Source of the DNA: a virus
IMG/VR virus record: IMGVR_UViG_3300020061_000001
Coordinates: 35,007 to 99,006 of that record
Length of the DNA stretch: 64,000 nucleotides
Reading direction: 5' to 3' (one strand)
In this document: positions 2,770 to 21,323 of the stretch, in pieces
Numbering within the stretch: position 1 is the stretch's first letter
How the letters are laid out: every line of letters begins with the position of its first letter
Position numbers and translations under genes: made by a program
Notes under the pieces: model-generated
What the model saw: only the letters and a program-made list of their open reading frames with translations
Told to the model about the DNA's origin: nothing
Database searches by the model: none

Positions 2770-3086
2770 AACCAGTAACATATAGACACAATTGGGACTC
2801 TAAAATGAGTCGAGAAGAAGAGATGGCTGAGAAGTTTGGACAACTTTTAGTTTCTCATGATACAAGTGAAGACTATGAAGAAGAGACATCCTCACTATTT
2901 GTAAGAGATGGTGAGTATACTTGGATTGATTCTAATGGTTGTTCTTGTTGGGACGGTGATTATGATGGTTGGATTCTTGATCTTGAAGAATTAAAAGCAT
3001 TGGCTAAAAAGACTTATGATAATCGTTACGATGGTCGTGATCGAGCTGAAGAACTTGTTGCAGGTTGGGTTTTGGAGAATCTATAA
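2766..3086 (+). CDS. Acidic phage protein, family A paralog (106 aa)
   Basis: Contains EYTWIDSNGCSCWDGDYDG, the family-A signature also seen at 1724 and 2147, in a protein that is about one quarter D/E. Helical tail. ATGA start overlap and TAATG end overlap place it in the same operon. Confidence 0.65.
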   Translation: MKPVTYRHNWDSKMSREEEMAEKFGQLLVSHDTSEDYEEETSSLFVRDGEYTWIDSNGCSCWDGDYDGWILDLEELKALAKKTYDNRYDGRDRAEELVAGWVLENL

Positions 3087-4030
3087 TGTCATATAATGGC
3101 TGGAAAATGATGGACAAGATAGATGTCGCAATAAAGACATCGCCTAGTACTTGGACATTTACAGGATACGTTGTAGAACATGGTGATAAAAGAGGTCTAG
3201 AATCTGCTAAGGACTGGGCGCGTGATCGTAACTATGACTATGCTAAGAAAGAATATACCAAAATATATGAGCCTGACGTTAAGACATTCGACAATGGTGG
3301 CTTCACTGTAAAAATCCTTAAGTCTGCTGGGGGTTCATCACAGGGTGGCCGTTTGTCGTTCTTAGCTTGTGAAGTTGAGAAAGATGGCATAAAGTTTATT
3401 ATCGGCGTGAACGATGCTTTGCTTGTTGATCTTATACGCAATAGCCATATCGACATGGGCGTGATAAGAGAGAAAGTTATGTTCGTTCGTAAGGGCGGTG
3501 TTCCTGGGTTTATTCATGAAAACATGGAAGCCTATAAAGAAGCAATAGCTGACATGAAACAAAAGTCAGACCTCAAAAAGGCTAAAAAGACTAAGAACTG
3601 GGAAATAGGAGGTGTTTATTCTACTCTTACCCAGACTGATATTTGTCTTGGCGAAGTATGGGATACTCTGGAGACTTATGAAGTCGAAGAGAGTTACAGC
3701 AGTTATCGCTGGGGTTCACGTAAGGCAACAAAATATCGTAAACTAGAAAAGCCAGTTAAAATGACAGCATGGATTAGCCTAAGCACTTACACCCACAAGA
3801 ATGGTTTGCCAGAAGACCTTGAAACATTTTTAAAAGAAGAATTGAAAGATCGTACTTACATTTCATTCTCCACAGGAACGCCTCCAGCGCGAACAAAGTC
3901 GGGTCAGTTAAAACTTAAAGACACCGACGGTAAGCTACTTGACACATTGTTTAAGGCTAAGCGTGAGTATGGTAATTATTACAGTGAAGAAGACAGAATT
4001 AAGGGTCGTTACGTGAAGGAGATAAAGTAA
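3086..4030 (+). CDS. Phage protein of unknown function (314 aa)
   Basis: Start chosen at the ATG overlapping the preceding stop (TAATG, product MSYNGWKMMD) rather than the TTG 21 bases earlier. Mixed alpha/beta protein with a lysine-rich middle (DLKKAKKTKNWE) and many aromatic residues. No catalytic motif recognised. Long genes of this type in phage early regions often act on nucleic acid, but nothing here proves it. Confidence 0.7.
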   Translation: MSYNGWKMMDKIDVAIKTSPSTWTFTGYVVEHGDKRGLESAKDWARDRNYDYAKKEYTKIYEPDVKTFDNGGFTVKILKSAGGSSQGGRLSFLACEVEKDGIKFIIGVNDALLVDLIRNSHIDMGVIREKVMFVRKGGVPGFIHENMEAYKEAIADMKQKSDLKKAKKTKNWEIGGVYSTLTQTDICLGEVWDTLETYEVEESYSSYRWGSRKATKYRKLEKPVKMTAWISLSTYTHKNGLPEDLETFLKEELKDRTYISFSTGTPPARTKSGQLKLKDTDGKLLDTLFKAKREYGNYYSEEDRIKGRYVKEIK

Positions 4031-4598: not shown

Positions 4599-4773
4599 TA
4601 AATCTACAGGGGAGTTTTGGCATCCGCTTGGCCACAACGGTAAGCCTAAATATGTGAAGCGTGGGGTGCAGGCATATCTATCTCCCAAGAAGGCATTGTC
4701 TTCCGCGATGCAATTTCATCCAAAACCTGACCCAGAAACAATAAAAGTAGTCGAGTACAAGGTGAACTTATGA
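4573..4773 (+). CDS. Hypothetical protein (66 aa)
   Basis: The frame is open much further upstream (from 4393), but a GTG at 4573 preceded by AGGGA gives a compact product beginning VKPIYVLIDKSTGEFWHPLG. The upstream extension would lie wholly inside the 4308 gene. Ends ATGA-coupled to the next gene. Unknown function. Confidence 0.6.
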   Translation: MKPIYVLIDKSTGEFWHPLGHNGKPKYVKRGVQAYLSPKKALSSAMQFHPKPDPETIKVVEYKVNL

Positions 4774-4934
4774 ACGAAGATGCCCCAAAGCCACATACAG
4801 AAGAAGAAGTTGCTTTTTGGGAGTCACGAATAGCGAGTGCGGAAACCATCGGAGATGTTGAAGGCACTCTTATATATAGAGGCATCCTAGCGCGTCGTGC
4901 GTTGATATGTATAGCACTGGAAGAAGAACTATGA
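4770..4934 (+). CDS. Small acidic protein (54 aa)
   Basis: Overlaps the previous gene by ATGA. Product starts MNEDAPKPHTEEEVAFWES and is helical and acidic. Its stop overlaps the ATG of the orphaned RlaP start fragment (ATGA), showing that it was once directly coupled to the RlaP-like gene. Confidence 0.6.
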   Translation: MNEDAPKPHTEEEVAFWESRIASAETIGDVEGTLIYRGILARRALICIALEEEL

Positions 4935-4966
4935 AACCAAATAACATTATCCTAGAAGGCGATTAG
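4931..4966 (+). pseudogene. Orphaned N-terminus of the RlaP-like gene
   Basis: A 12-codon ORF reading MKPNNIILEGD then stop. It mirrors the start of the intact RlaP-like gene at 5573 (MNKKPNRIILEGVVGSR), with DNA differences mostly at third codon positions. It keeps the ATGA overlap expected of the original gene start. The simplest reading is that the GIY-YIG gene inserted right after these codons and carried a replacement 5' end for the target gene. Confidence 0.6.
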
Positions 4967-4983
4967 TTTATAATTGATAATAT

Positions 4984-5604
4984 ATGATTGGTTATATTTA
5001 TAAACACACATCACCTTCGGGTAAATCGTACATAGGGCAGACGTTAGGGACATTAAAGAGGCGTTGGGATTCTGGTCACGGATATGCTCCTGCGACTATA
5101 TTCGGCTCGGCAATAAAAAAATATGGTTGGAAAAACTTTGAACATGTAGTTTTGCATATAGTCGAAGCCGAAGACAGTGAAAGTCTCGTAAATGAATTAA
5201 ATGCTCTTGAAATATCTGAGATTGTGGCGCATAATAGTATACATCCAGACGGCTATAACGGTACTCTTGGTGGAAGAAATGGGTTTCGAACTGAAAACCA
5301 AAAATCGCAGATCAGTAAAACACTAACGGGCAGAAAAATATCAGATGAACATAGAGCTAATATATCACTTGCCCTAAAACGAAGATGGCAAGACCCAGTT
5401 TGGCAAGAGAACTTTTCTGAAAAAATGAAAGCCAAATATAGAGAAGAAGACTACAACAAAAAAAGAAGCGCATCGTTGAGTAAAGCGCTAAAAGGGCGTA
5501 CGATGTCAGACGAATGGAAAAAGAGAATGTCTGATGCAGCGAAAAAACGCTGGGAAAACAAAAGGTTAGAAAATGAACAAAAAGCCAAACCGAATTATAC
5601 TTGA
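4984..5604 (+). CDS. GIY-YIG homing endonuclease with NUMOD3 repeats
   Basis: 206 residues. The N-terminal ~90 residues hold the GIY-YIG nuclease core (GYIYKHTSPSGKSYIGQT, then RRW and a conserved N/E region). After it come NUMOD3-like DNA-binding repeats (KTLTGRKISDEHRANISLAL and SKALKGRTMSDEWKKRMS) spaced with basic linkers. This is the usual build of free-standing homing endonucleases. A TATAAT at 4969-4974 lies 9 nt before the ATG. The last 32 bases overlap the start of the RlaP-like gene in another frame, so the homing gene's tail recreates the target's 5' end. Confidence 0.85.
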   Translation: MIGYIYKHTSPSGKSYIGQTLGTLKRRWDSGHGYAPATIFGSAIKKYGWKNFEHVVLHIVEAEDSESLVNELNALEISEIVAHNSIHPDGYNGTLGGRNGFRTENQKSQISKTLTGRKISDEHRANISLALKRRWQDPVWQENFSEKMKAKYREEDYNKKRSASLSKALKGRTMSDEWKKRMSDAAKKRWENKRLENEQKAKPNYT

Positions 5605-6262
5605 GGGAGTCGTAGGCTCAAGAGCATACGGGCTTGCAACTGAGTCTAGTGATACCGATGTTAAAGGTATATATTTACTACCTACTAGCACGGTTCTAGG
5701 TATCAATTTTAATCCACAAAAAACTACCATACAGAACACTAATCCAGACGAAGTTTATCACGAAGTTGGTAAATTTATGAAGCTCGCTGGTGGGGGTAAT
5801 CCAACTGTGTCTGAACTATTGTGGCTTGAAAGTTATACTGTGCTTAATCCTATTGGCAAATTGTTAGTAGATAACCGCAAAATCTTTCTATCAACTCCGG
5901 CAGTCACGAACGCATATCGAGGTTATGCTCTTGGTCAAGCTATGGACTTGAGTAGGAGGCAGGAAGAGGGTAAAGAGGGGTACGATAGTGCTCTTAAAAA
6001 CCGTTTTGCAAAACACACTAGACATTGCTTCCGTTTACTGCTACAATGTAGACAGCTTCTCGAAACAGGCGAATTAACCGTTAGAGTGACTCCTGAGCAG
6101 CGAGAATGGTTATTCAAGATGGGAGAACAGACACCAGAAACGGTTGTTGACGCCTTCATTATTGAAGATAGAAAGATGGAAGATATTAAATCAATCCTTC
6201 CGGACGAGCCTAATTGGAAAAAGATTGATGAATTGCTGTATAGCATAAGGATGGGAAAATGA
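5573..6262 (+). CDS. RlaP-like nucleotidyltransferase
   Basis: Pol-beta-superfamily nucleotidyltransferase of the RlaP (RNA-ligase-associated polymerase) type: G15-S16-R-A-Y-G-L, then D27-x-D29 (SSDTDVKG), followed by the family's WLES segment and a helical C-terminal half containing KNRFAKHTRHCFRLLLQC. RlaP proteins are linked in the literature to RNA repair alongside RNA ligases; no ligase is seen in this window. The start sits inside the 3' end of the GIY-YIG gene. ATGA coupling to the next gene. Confidence 0.75.
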   Translation: MNKKPNRIILEGVVGSRAYGLATESSDTDVKGIYLLPTSTVLGINFNPQKTTIQNTNPDEVYHEVGKFMKLAGGGNPTVSELLWLESYTVLNPIGKLLVDNRKIFLSTPAVTNAYRGYALGQAMDLSRRQEEGKEGYDSALKNRFAKHTRHCFRLLLQCRQLLETGELTVRVTPEQREWLFKMGEQTPETVVDAFIIEDRKMEDIKSILPDEPNWKKIDELLYSIRMGK

Positions 6263-6595: not shown

Positions 6596-7573
6596 ATGGA
6601 AAAAGCATTAGCAATACAAAAACAAGTAATTGAAATTCTTGGCACAGAAGATGTCTATCTTGTTGGTGGTTCCGTTCGTGATATTGTTATGGGTAATGAA
6701 CCAAAAGATTATGACTTTACTACTCCTATGCTCCCAGACGATATCGAAGCAGCCGTTAAAAAGGCTGGGCGCAAGTCTTATGGTATTGGCAAGAAGTTCG
6801 GTACTATTGGTTTTAAGGTCCCAGTGAACATATCAGATGAAACTGGTGAAGTAGTCGCCACTGATTACGAATACGTTGAAGTAACAACTTTCCGTTCTGA
6901 GGTATACACAAGCAAGTCTCGCAAGCCAGAAGTAGAGTTTGTTGCTTCATTAGACGAAGACCTTGCTCGTCGTGACTTCACTATGAACGCGATGGTACTT
7001 CGTCCAGATGGGACTATCTATGACCCATACGGAGGCAAGCTTCATATCCACAGCAAGCAAATTGTAACTGTAGGGCTTCCTAAAGATCGTATTCAAGAAG
7101 ACCCTCTTCGCATACTTCGCGCGGCACGTTTTGCAGCTCGTTATAATTTTGAAATTGACCCCAATTTCATCGGTAAGGCAAGGCAACTCGCAGATCGTAT
7201 CTACGATGTATCTGTTGAGCGTTGGGTACAGGAACTTGATAAGCTGCTTATATCAGAGTCTGTAGAAAAGGGCATGACAAGTCTCCAAAAGATGGGGGTT
7301 CTTATAAGAATTTTACCAGAGGTAGAATCTGTGTTGAAAATATACCCATCGTTAAAAGATATTTTACTCTTTGAGGGTGATCGCAGGAATGGTAATCCAG
7401 ACTTTGCTTGGAAACACCTACTTAGTTGGAACGGTCTACCACACGTTAATGAATCTGATAGTTCACGTATTAAAATATCAAAGTATGTGAATATAGGTGT
7501 CTGTGCGCGATTAAAATTCTCCAACGAACGTACAGATATAATACTTGACAACAAGAAGAAAAAACAGGTATAA
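6596..7573 (+). CDS. cca: CCA-adding enzyme / class II tRNA nucleotidyltransferase
   Basis: 325 residues from the ATG at 6596 (the TTG at 6566 lies in the previous gene). All class II landmarks are present: G24-G-S-V-R-D29, metal pair D38-x-D40 (KDYDFTT), motif C RRDFTMNAM at 125-133, motif D-like EDPLRILRAARFAARY, and the ERW motif E segment. These enzymes add or repair the 3' CCA of tRNA. The C-terminal domain is shorter than in bacterial enzymes (~400 aa). With Pth2, RlaP-like and the HAD gene at 17162 it suggests tRNA upkeep during infection. The promoter for the next gene lies inside its last codons. Confidence 0.85.
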   Translation: MEKALAIQKQVIEILGTEDVYLVGGSVRDIVMGNEPKDYDFTTPMLPDDIEAAVKKAGRKSYGIGKKFGTIGFKVPVNISDETGEVVATDYEYVEVTTFRSEVYTSKSRKPEVEFVASLDEDLARRDFTMNAMVLRPDGTIYDPYGGKLHIHSKQIVTVGLPKDRIQEDPLRILRAARFAARYNFEIDPNFIGKARQLADRIYDVSVERWVQELDKLLISESVEKGMTSLQKMGVLIRILPEVESVLKIYPSLKDILLFEGDRRNGNPDFAWKHLLSWNGLPHVNESDSSRIKISKYVNIGVCARLKFSNERTDIILDNKKKKQV

Positions 7574-7580
7574 TTAGTAT
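7545..7580 (+). promoter_or_regulatory. Strong sigma70-like promoter, predicted leaderless
   Basis: Consensus TTGACA at 7545-7550, 18 bp spacer, TATAAT at 7569-7574. The next ATG begins 6 nt later, so the mRNA should start at its AUG. Confidence 0.7.
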
Positions 7581-7892
7581 ATGGTCCCTACAACAAAACA
7601 AAAAATAGAACGTAAATATGTTCCACCAACTTTTATAGATGAAGAGTCTGTTAAAAAACTCTCCCCTGAAAAGCAGCAATATTGGGCGAATAGAATCCGT
7701 GGTCTTCCTGGTCAAGGCCCGAAACCAAAGAAACCAGGAGTAACACTTTCTAGCGATGTGACTACTTACTTTGATAATGAGGGTAACATGGTCACAAAGA
7801 ATCGTGCAGCTCGTCGCCAGCGTCCAACAACTCCACCGTACTACACAAAATCAAATCATGCTCAAAAGAAACTAAGAGGACAAATAAAATAA
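7581..7892 (+). CDS. Basic proline-rich protein (103 aa)
   Basis: First gene after a consensus promoter with no leader. Lysine/proline-rich (GLPGQGPKPKKPG; NRAARRQRPTTPPYY), probably a small nucleic-acid-binding protein, but not recognised. TAATG coupling to the next gene. Confidence 0.65.
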   Translation: MVPTTKQKIERKYVPPTFIDEESVKKLSPEKQQYWANRIRGLPGQGPKPKKPGVTLSSDVTTYFDNEGNMVTKNRAARRQRPTTPPYYTKSNHAQKKLRGQIK

Positions 7893-10279: not shown

Positions 10280-11021
10280 TTATCGTCGCGCAGATAAAAT
10301 ATTCGAACTAACCATAGCCTCACTTATTCGTAGTGGGGCTAATCTTGCTGATGTGACAGTCTTCATTAGTGACCCAAGCGAACACCAAGCCTATGTTGAC
10401 GGTGTAGGTAACATGGTGAAGATCGTTGATTCTGTTCCTACTAAAAGCAAGAATTTAAGCTTTATAATGAACTATTATCCAAAGGGAACACACATTCTAT
10501 TTGTTGATGATGATATTAAGTCCTTTGAGAAGCTATCTAAGGACGGCAAGAAGCTTGTAGAGACAAACCTAGACTTTGCCCGAAAAGGCTTTGAATTATG
10601 CGAGAGAGAAGGCCTGACAACCTGGGGAATTTATGCAGCTCGCAATGCTTTCTTTATGAAGCCGAGAATTACTAAGGGTTTATTCTTACAGGTTGGTAGC
10701 TGTTACGGTTTAATTAACACTGGCGCAGATTATCACCATGTCACCACAGATGAGAAGGAAGACTATCGCCGAGGGTTCCAAGTATTCGCCGAAGAGGGTG
10801 GAATGATTCGAATGGATTATATTACTGTGAACACTGCTTATTACAAAGAATCAGGTGGGATGCAGGAGCGTCGCACGGCCTTAATAATTGAAAGAGCTGC
10901 TAAACTTCTAGCCTTTAACTACCCACAATATTGCAAAGTTTACCAGAGCAAGGGCAAAGGTACATGGGAACTACGGTTAAATAATCATGTCTTTAAAACC
11001 GAGATTCTAGAGACTCTGTGA
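10260..11021 (+). CDS. TET-associated glycosyltransferase (GT-A-like)
   Basis: 253 residues beginning MQIAIPSYRRADKI, the GT-A opening strand, with the nucleotide-sugar/metal motif F81-V-D83-D-D85. The GSCYGLINTGADYH and EDYRRGFQVF segments fit the TAGT (TET/JBP-associated glycosyltransferase) group, which adds sugars to hydroxylated bases made by the dioxygenase. Its start overlaps the TET gene by 20 bases. The last 37 bases overlap, tail to tail, with the minus-strand HNH gene. Confidence 0.75.
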   Translation: MQIAIPSYRRADKIFELTIASLIRSGANLADVTVFISDPSEHQAYVDGVGNMVKIVDSVPTKSKNLSFIMNYYPKGTHILFVDDDIKSFEKLSKDGKKLVETNLDFARKGFELCEREGLTTWGIYAARNAFFMKPRITKGLFLQVGSCYGLINTGADYHHVTTDEKEDYRRGFQVFAEEGGMIRMDYITVNTAYYKESGGMQERRTALIIERAAKLLAFNYPQYCKVYQSKGKGTWELRLNNHVFKTEILETL

Positions 11022-11383
11022 TATTGCCTACAAGCTATGCCAGAGCGAAGTTCCAAGAGTATCCTCGCTGTTGGATATTGGACAGACTTATAATAGTTAC
11101 AATGGCTACAGCAGACTCGGAGATTTTTATAAGCGGAAGTGCCGTAAAATCTCCCAAGTGGGATGAAATGATCGGTATGCCAAGCACCGTCAATTGGGTG
11201 GAGACAGTAGAAGCATTTACCTCCTTGCTTACGATACTGATAGCTTCGCCATCTTTTAAATCCAGGAGTTAGTTTTTTGCGCTCGAACGCATCGCGTTTA
11301 CGTTTAAGAGTAGACGGAGATACAATCTGCATTTCCTTCTTAGTTGTCTTGACCCATGCGCCACCACTCTTGTATATAAACAT
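10985..11383 (-). CDS. HNH endonuclease (minus strand)
   Basis: 132 residues: basic N-terminus, then C-F-Y-C (GGKCFYCLHPIDG), catalytic HTDHFIPL, N-L-R-V-C-C-S-H-C-N, i.e. a zinc-bound HNH core with two CxxC pairs. Free-standing HNH genes in phages are commonly homing nucleases. It lies on the opposite strand at the end of the modification operon, consistent with a late arrival. A TACAAT lies 8 nt before its ATG. Confidence 0.8.
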   Translation of the reverse strand: MFIYKSGGAWVKTTKKEMQIVSPSTLKRKRDAFERKKLTPGFKRWRSYQYRKQGGKCFYCLHPIDGAWHTDHFIPLGRFYGTSAYKNLRVCCSHCNYYKSVQYPTARILLELRSGIACRQYHRVSRISVLKT

Positions 11384-20498: not shown

Positions 20499-20692
20499 AA
20501 TTAAATGAATTATATTGGCGATGGAGTCCGGATGGAACTATTTGCTATGTAGAATACGCCTATCTAACAAGATTCTTAAAACGATTAAAAGTAAAAAGAG
20601 TTGCAATGTTCTATTCAAACGATTGGGAAACCCCAAGAGACGCCAGAGGAGCAGCTGAAAATTTTATAGAAAGGACTAAGGAAATAAAATGA
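20495..20692 (+). CDS. Hypothetical basic protein (65 aa)
   Basis: ATG at 20495 (ATGA overlap) preferred to the ATG 15 bases earlier. Product starts MKLNELYWRWSPDGTICYVE; basic with LTRFLKRLKVKRV. Unknown. Confidence 0.55.
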   Translation: MKLNELYWRWSPDGTICYVEYAYLTRFLKRLKVKRVAMFYSNDWETPRDARGAAENFIERTKEIK

Positions 20693-21042
20693 GTACATAT
20701 AAAGACTTGAAGAATCACGTTCATAATACCCTAAAGATTACCAAAGAGGAAATAAGGGAAATTGTTGAATCCACTGTTGAAAAGGTTGTTGAGCGTCGGG
20801 TAGATGTACTCTTACGCGATAAGCTAAATGTTCAGCATCTTGTCGATCACGCTATAGAACAAAAGATTAATGAGAATAACTGGTTTTGGGACGAGAGCGA
20901 AGATAAATTAGACGATTATATTAAAAAAGAAATGGTGCGCAAACTGACTGATGGTGTTAAATTAAAAGTTGAGGTGGTCGGTAAGAAAAGCGACGCTACG
21001 CAAACAGGTGATAGAGTAATGAAAATCAGAAAGAATAAATGA
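20689..21042 (+). CDS. Coiled-coil-like charged protein (117 aa)
   Basis: Long charged helices (KEEIREIVESTVEKVVERRV) then a basic tail. Probably oligomeric. Overlaps both neighbours by 4 bases. Confidence 0.6.
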   Translation: MSTYKDLKNHVHNTLKITKEEIREIVESTVEKVVERRVDVLLRDKLNVQHLVDHAIEQKINENNWFWDESEDKLDDYIKKEMVRKLTDGVKLKVEVVGKKSDATQTGDRVMKIRKNK

Positions 21043-21323
21043 TGTGGTTCTCCAAAAAAGATAAAAAACCTCAACGCGATATCGTTGATACTAAAAAAGT
21101 TTATAAAGTCGTTAAAGAATGGAACGATTCTAAGGCTGAGTTCAGGTACCGTCTATATGTAGGCGAAGAAATATTATGGAGTGACGGAATGAAGACTATG
21201 TCGTTATTTTCTAACCAAGGTACAAGGTATGTTAATAATGAGGGTTGGGCTTTTGTTGATGATGGAGACAAGGCTTGGGCAAGACGAATAGCTAAACACT
21301 ATAAAATAGAGATGATAAAATAA
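21039..21323 (+). CDS. Hypothetical protein (94 aa)
   Basis: Very basic first 20 residues (SKKDKKPQRD), then strands rich in W and Y. TAATG end. Unknown. Confidence 0.6.
   Translation: MMWFSKKDKKPQRDIVDTKKVYKVVKEWNDSKAEFRYRLYVGEEILWSDGMKTMSLFSNQGTRYVNNEGWAFVDDGDKAWARRIAKHYKIEMIK

Follow-up and report, generated by a model that had tools for sequence, protein, structure and literature searches.

Why should a phage gene have two beginnings? The window, a 64,000-nt stretch of viral DNA (positions 35,007-99,006 of the IMG/VR record IMGVR_UViG_3300020061_000001), carries an endonuclease gene that sits between a short stub of RlaP-like coding sequence and a full-length, re-headed RlaP gene. A sequence-only reading of this locus had proposed that a GIY-YIG homing gene entered at the start of the RlaP gene and left a copy of the N-terminus behind; all of its coordinates held on re-checking. 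This arrangement raises the questions of which of the two starts is the older one, how far the newer one extends and by what route it arrived. The features of the locus, as read here, are as follows.

4770-4934, plus strand: small gene of 54 amino acids, function unknown; its stop TGA (4932-4934) overlaps the original RlaP start (ATGA, 4931-4934)
4919-4926, plus strand: Shine-Dalgarno-like sequence GGAAGAAG ahead of the original RlaP start (the stub), by direct sequence reading
4931-4966, plus strand: stub, the original RlaP 5' end (MKPNNIILEG), truncated behind codon 10 and ending in GAT TAG; 22 of 24 nucleotides as in L003, 21 of 24 as in L001
4961-4965, plus strand: probable left junction of the insertion, by comparison with L001 and L003; relatives go on with GGCGTAAC, the window has GGCG-ATT-AG
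4965-4986, plus strand: leader of the endonuclease gene, AGTTTATAATTGATAATATATG, with a promoter-like TATAAT near the start codon and without a Shine-Dalgarno sequence
4984-5604, plus strand: free-standing GIY-YIG homing-endonuclease-like gene of 206 amino acids (phrog_314, conserved residues, I-TevI fold, NUMOD3 at residues 171-187)
5560-5565, plus strand: Shine-Dalgarno-like sequence AAAAGG ahead of the new RlaP start, within the endonuclease ORF, by direct sequence reading
5573-5752, plus strand: new RlaP 5' segment, approximately codons 1-60, diverged from all relatives, with the GSxAYG and SDxD motifs kept
5753-6262, plus strand: native RlaP 3' part (PF10127), nearest to L001 and L002

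The stub is an orphan reading frame of 11 codons, with its ATG at 4931 and its stop TAG at 4964-4966, which reads MKPNNIILEGD-stop and ends 17 nt before the endonuclease ORF. Its ATGA overlap with the preceding gene is real, and the overlap of the endonuclease gene with the RlaP start, reported earlier as 32 bases, is exactly 32 nt (4984-5604 and 5573-6262). The whole RlaP-family nucleotidyltransferase ORF (5573-6262) begins MNKKPNRIILEGV, matches the PF10127 profile at E 1.3e-23, and contains the nucleotidyltransferase motif GSxAYG...SDxD with the invariant residues G15 S16, S26 D27 and D29. The insertion point lies within the stretch that encodes this conserved catalytic start, IILEGxxGSxAYG...SDxD.

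The resemblance between stub and working start exceeds chance, because, across the six frames of the whole 64 kb, no place other than 4934 and 5582 matches the peptide KPNRIILEG at six or more of its nine positions, and because the stub-to-start alignment score, obtained from the first 30 RlaP residues and the 700 nt preceding the endonuclease gene, was reached by none of 200 shuffles. An equal score was found once when 81 ORFs of at least 100 amino acids were compared with their own upstream DNA; it belonged to one probably spurious ORF on the minus strand, which overlaps real genes.

The order of the two starts was established from relatives. Five RlaP relatives were identified in IMG/VR contigs (L001, L002, L003, L017, and L018), with amino acid identities of 81, 78, 70, 59, and 51%, respectively. 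The endonuclease gene adjoins RlaP in none of them, and querying their records with the window protein gave no copy at any other place, a weak negative in that the records may be incomplete. L001, L003, and L017 have a single RlaP start, which like that of the orphan adjoins or overlaps the stop of the ORF before it. In L001 and L003 this start reads ATG AAR CCA GAT AAC ATW ATT CTA GAA GGC GTA AC, with the native front around AACATTATTCTAGAAGGCGTAAC, and that of L017 is similar; L002 and L018 have RlaP fronts of another type. In the 24-nt core CCA..GGC, the orphan matches L003 at 22 positions and L001 at 21, while the working start matches the orphan at 16 and L001/L003 at 14-15. At eight codons the orphan and the working start specify the same residue, and six of these eight have different spellings; the differences between the two are mostly synonymous. 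L001 and L003 thus match the orphan better, which makes the orphan the older start and the working one the newcomer. Judged by these relatives, the stub is the ancestral RlaP start, and the insertion site no longer has its usual spelling in the window phage. The claim that the two are versions of one start was thus borne out, since relatives without the endonuclease begin RlaP with the sequence of the stub. Their starts at the preceding stop (L001, L003, and L017) likewise support insertion into a coupled gene that received a fresh 5' end, and none of the five relatives, which lack the homing gene at RlaP, shows a mini-ORF ahead of a distinct RlaP start. No homologue of the gene at 4770-4934 was found, and none of the RlaP relatives has one. 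In L001, the counterpart of the gene at approximately 3083-4030 in the window appears as two overlapping frames just before RlaP (3077-3995), a split that would reflect a frameshift or a sequencing error. Searches for DNA relatives among phage records found none, and a search for relatives in cellular genomes confirmed none.

The probable left junction, at 4961-4965, is the point from which the relatives run on with GTAAC. As the record is a metagenomic virus contig, an assembly artefact that merged two phage variants could be proposed, but a k-mer join needs a junction stretch common to both variants, whereas relatives lacking the insert share nothing with the window after GGCG; the flanking ORFs are also intact, and such an artefact is considered highly improbable. 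GIY-YIG enzymes are often intron-encoded, and the stub and the gene lie in the right order for the stub to be the 5' exon of a self-splicing intron that holds the endonuclease. However, only about 23 nt separate the stub from an ORF that itself runs into RlaP, and RlaP downstream comes with a complete start that would be superfluous behind an intron, so that this explanation is given almost no credence. A group I intron was rejected, as the interval 4700-5900 has no Rfam match up to E 1 and offers no room for one. RNA structure at either junction was no better than in shuffled sequences.

The extent of the new front is revealed by its divergence. It reads MNKKPNRIILEGVVGSRAYG, uses other codon spellings, and has diverged further than the remainder of RlaP. 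Over codons 4-61, the window RlaP shares 67, 64, and 69% amino acid identity with L001, L002, and L003, respectively, and over codons 62-226 it shares 85, 82, and 70%; L001 and L003 are 86 and 70% identical to each other in the same two parts. The boundary at codon 61 in this comparison was picked after the alignment had been viewed, and the Fisher values that go with it are descriptive. Where L001, L002, and L003 agree, the window differs from them at 9 of 40 sites in the stretch ending at residue 60 and at 3 of 104 sites after that. A maximum chi-square breakpoint scan placed the change after residue 60 (permutation p 0.017). The scan repeated with each relative in turn as the odd one returned p 0.73 (L001), 0.18 (L002), and 0.03 (L003), so that by itself this test is moderate evidence. 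Topology-switching sites that unite the window with L001, counted against those that unite L001 with L003, change from 2:13 in the front to 33:7 in the rest (Fisher 4e-6), or from 4:10 to 33:9 when L002 replaces L001 (p 0.001). Part of the contrast between front and body may come from an unusual likeness of L001 and L003 in the front. The body tree groups the window with L001 and L002 (85/95), and a grouping of L001, L002, and L003 without the window is rejected (AU p 0.017). In the front tree, a weak one of 58 columns, the window lies outside all others, and forcing it together with L001 and L002 gives AU p 0.057. A probable origin of the front in a diverged donor is the simplest reading, though short of proof, and the working RlaP gene would most simply be a hybrid, in which the endonuclease and a second 5' end are joined to the native 3' part. 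The sequence-only reading had a fresh 5' end supplied but overlooked its length, as the replaced segment seems to reach approximately codon 60 and not the first codons alone.

The same divergence bears on an explanation that invokes no foreign donor. The RlaP 5' end might have been doubled within the phage, with the endonuclease entering between the copies and the working copy drifting or being selected to lose the enzyme's recognition sequence. The new front does encode nearly the same first residues (KPNRIILEG), and donor searches with the new front and with GSRAYGLAT found only distant RlaP genes. The divergence, however, extends to about codon 60 with amino acid changes and then drops sharply, whereas selection against a single recognition site would be expected to leave a shorter and mainly synonymous trace, and prior duplication is regarded as unlikely. 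We consider it probable, with fairly good confidence, that the endonuclease entered RlaP after codon 10 and was joined to a second 5' end of approximately 60 codons, the old end being left as the stub.

The identity of the endonuclease was assessed from both profile and structure. The protein matches the PHROG 314 homing endonucleases (4e-29) and has a PF07460 NUMOD3 motif at residues 171-187 (22.2 bits; cut-off 20.4), and residues Y6, Y16, R27, E76, and N92 do not vary across seven homologues. The GIY-YIG profile PF01541 did not match the window protein up to E 1, and it does match the homologue L006 (1.1e-6). A PDB sequence search gave no useful match. Its AlphaFold2 model has a mean pLDDT of 72.5, with values above 80 in six of the first nine blocks of ten residues, and the best structural match is the I-TevI catalytic domain (Z 9.2 and 9.1; rmsd 2.5 over 80 residues). 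By its modelled fold and its catalytic Y, Y, R, E, and N residues, the protein is homing-endonuclease-like, of the GIY-YIG type. The window protein lacks the longer C-terminal extension that homologues L005 and L006 carry, and it may be inactive. Homologous genes lie directly before genes for a tape-measure protein (L005), a terminase (L006), and a T4-type portal (L012), with overlapping stop and start. No significant stub was found at other endonuclease loci in the seven relatives tried (L012 with little upstream DNA), and no relative was found with the same endonuclease at RlaP.

The proposed entry of the endonuclease with a second RlaP front can be cast as a homing event. The enzyme would cut the conserved coding sequence of the first RlaP motif in a phage without the endonuclease gene, and the cut would be repaired by copying a donor that carries the endonuclease together with its own RlaP front, likely a diverged relative (co-conversion). 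Repair guided by RlaP homology on the right and joined just after codon 10 on the left would yield the observed gene order. Because the new front keeps GSxAYG and SDxD in another spelling, the resulting copy would be immune to the enzyme. From this arrangement we infer a donor origin, an active endonuclease, a cut site in the conserved stretch, and resistance of the new spelling. A more tentative idea, which we hold as possible and somewhat doubtful, is that the endonuclease and the RlaP front form one mobile unit, which cuts an RNA-repair gene at its most conserved portion and delivers a recoded, uncuttable front without the aid of an intron or intein. Such a unit would be a natural counterpart, in a phage, of synthetic homing drives with a recoded-rescue design.

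Expression of the rearranged genes can be considered from their leaders. We infer that RlaP still works from the new ribosome-binding site inside the endonuclease ORF, and the host gene probably survives. The endonuclease gene has no Shine-Dalgarno sequence. TATAAT located 4-9 nt before an ATG occurs at 15 places in the window, against 7.4 expected, and the phage may therefore use promoters next to start codons; a promoter-like site at 7545-7583 combines TATAAT before an ATG with a perfect TTGACA. These motifs suggest leaderless promoters in this phage, and the leader at 4965-4986 may be the endonuclease's own promoter. Directly after the stub stands the 11-mer AGTTTATAATT, which occurs once in the window and is also found directly before the genome's second GIY-YIG gene.

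This second gene lies outside the window (L037, minus strand, 1749->1108; G000:C1 ~20,570-21,215), contains one in-frame TGA, overlaps the start of a RusA-like gene, and is too distant to be detected by a search with the window protein. L046 represents the empty site between an 81-aa gene and RusA. The locus was rejected as another re-headed case: judged by the empty site, the native RusA start persists downstream of the endonuclease stop, which makes this insertion one of the ordinary between-genes type. An HNH endonuclease gene (PF01844, 2.6e-6) occupies 10985-11383 of the window on the minus strand, opposite the plus-strand gene block, and the records of L001, L002, L003, and L017 also contain HNH genes.

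The locus indicates that a selfish gene can occupy conserved catalytic coding sequence without an intron or intein while the host gene is kept whole. Hybrids of this kind distort gene trees, and searches for stubs beside endonuclease genes offer a cheap means of finding homing sites and the polarity of insertion from sequence alone. Elements of the arrangement are familiar in phages. PMC2988022 describes phage genes split by endonucleases, Aeh1 mobE in nrdA and T4 mobA in gene 60, which like the window place a free-standing endonuclease within a phage gene at a functionally critical position. Those targets stay in two pieces, whereas in the window a second 5' end made RlaP whole again and a stub remained. 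The T4 seg endonucleases SegF and SegG mediate marker exclusion with co-conversion of donor flanks (PMC2988022). There, too, a free-standing GIY-YIG gene adjoins its likely target gene, and flank co-conversion from a donor is what is proposed for the window; activity has been demonstrated in T4 and is putative in the window, and the passages on the seg enzymes do not mention that any piece of the old start of the target is left over. Searches of open-access papers found no phage gene with both a new N-terminus and the stub of the old one kept, which is not proof of absence.

The closest parallels are gene hybrids formed by mobile ORFs in fungal mitochondria, namely Allomyces atp6 and Glomus atp6, atp9, cox2, and nad3, in which the endonuclease ORF carries a diverged C-terminus and the native end stays behind as a remnant nearer to relatives (PMC3630166). 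The window shares with them an endonuclease ORF inside a host gene, a diverged copy of one end, a native remnant, and one joined reading frame. The fungal hybrids have a replaced C-terminus, mostly LAGLIDADG enzymes, and a mitochondrial setting, whereas the window has a replaced N-terminus, a GIY-YIG enzyme, and a phage genome. Of the traits that mark such endonuclease-borne hybrids, a native-end remnant that resembles relatives and a diverged new end are present here, and C-terminal replacement is absent. The window case therefore works like the fungal hybrids and, because it is the N-terminus that was replaced, is not classed as one of them.
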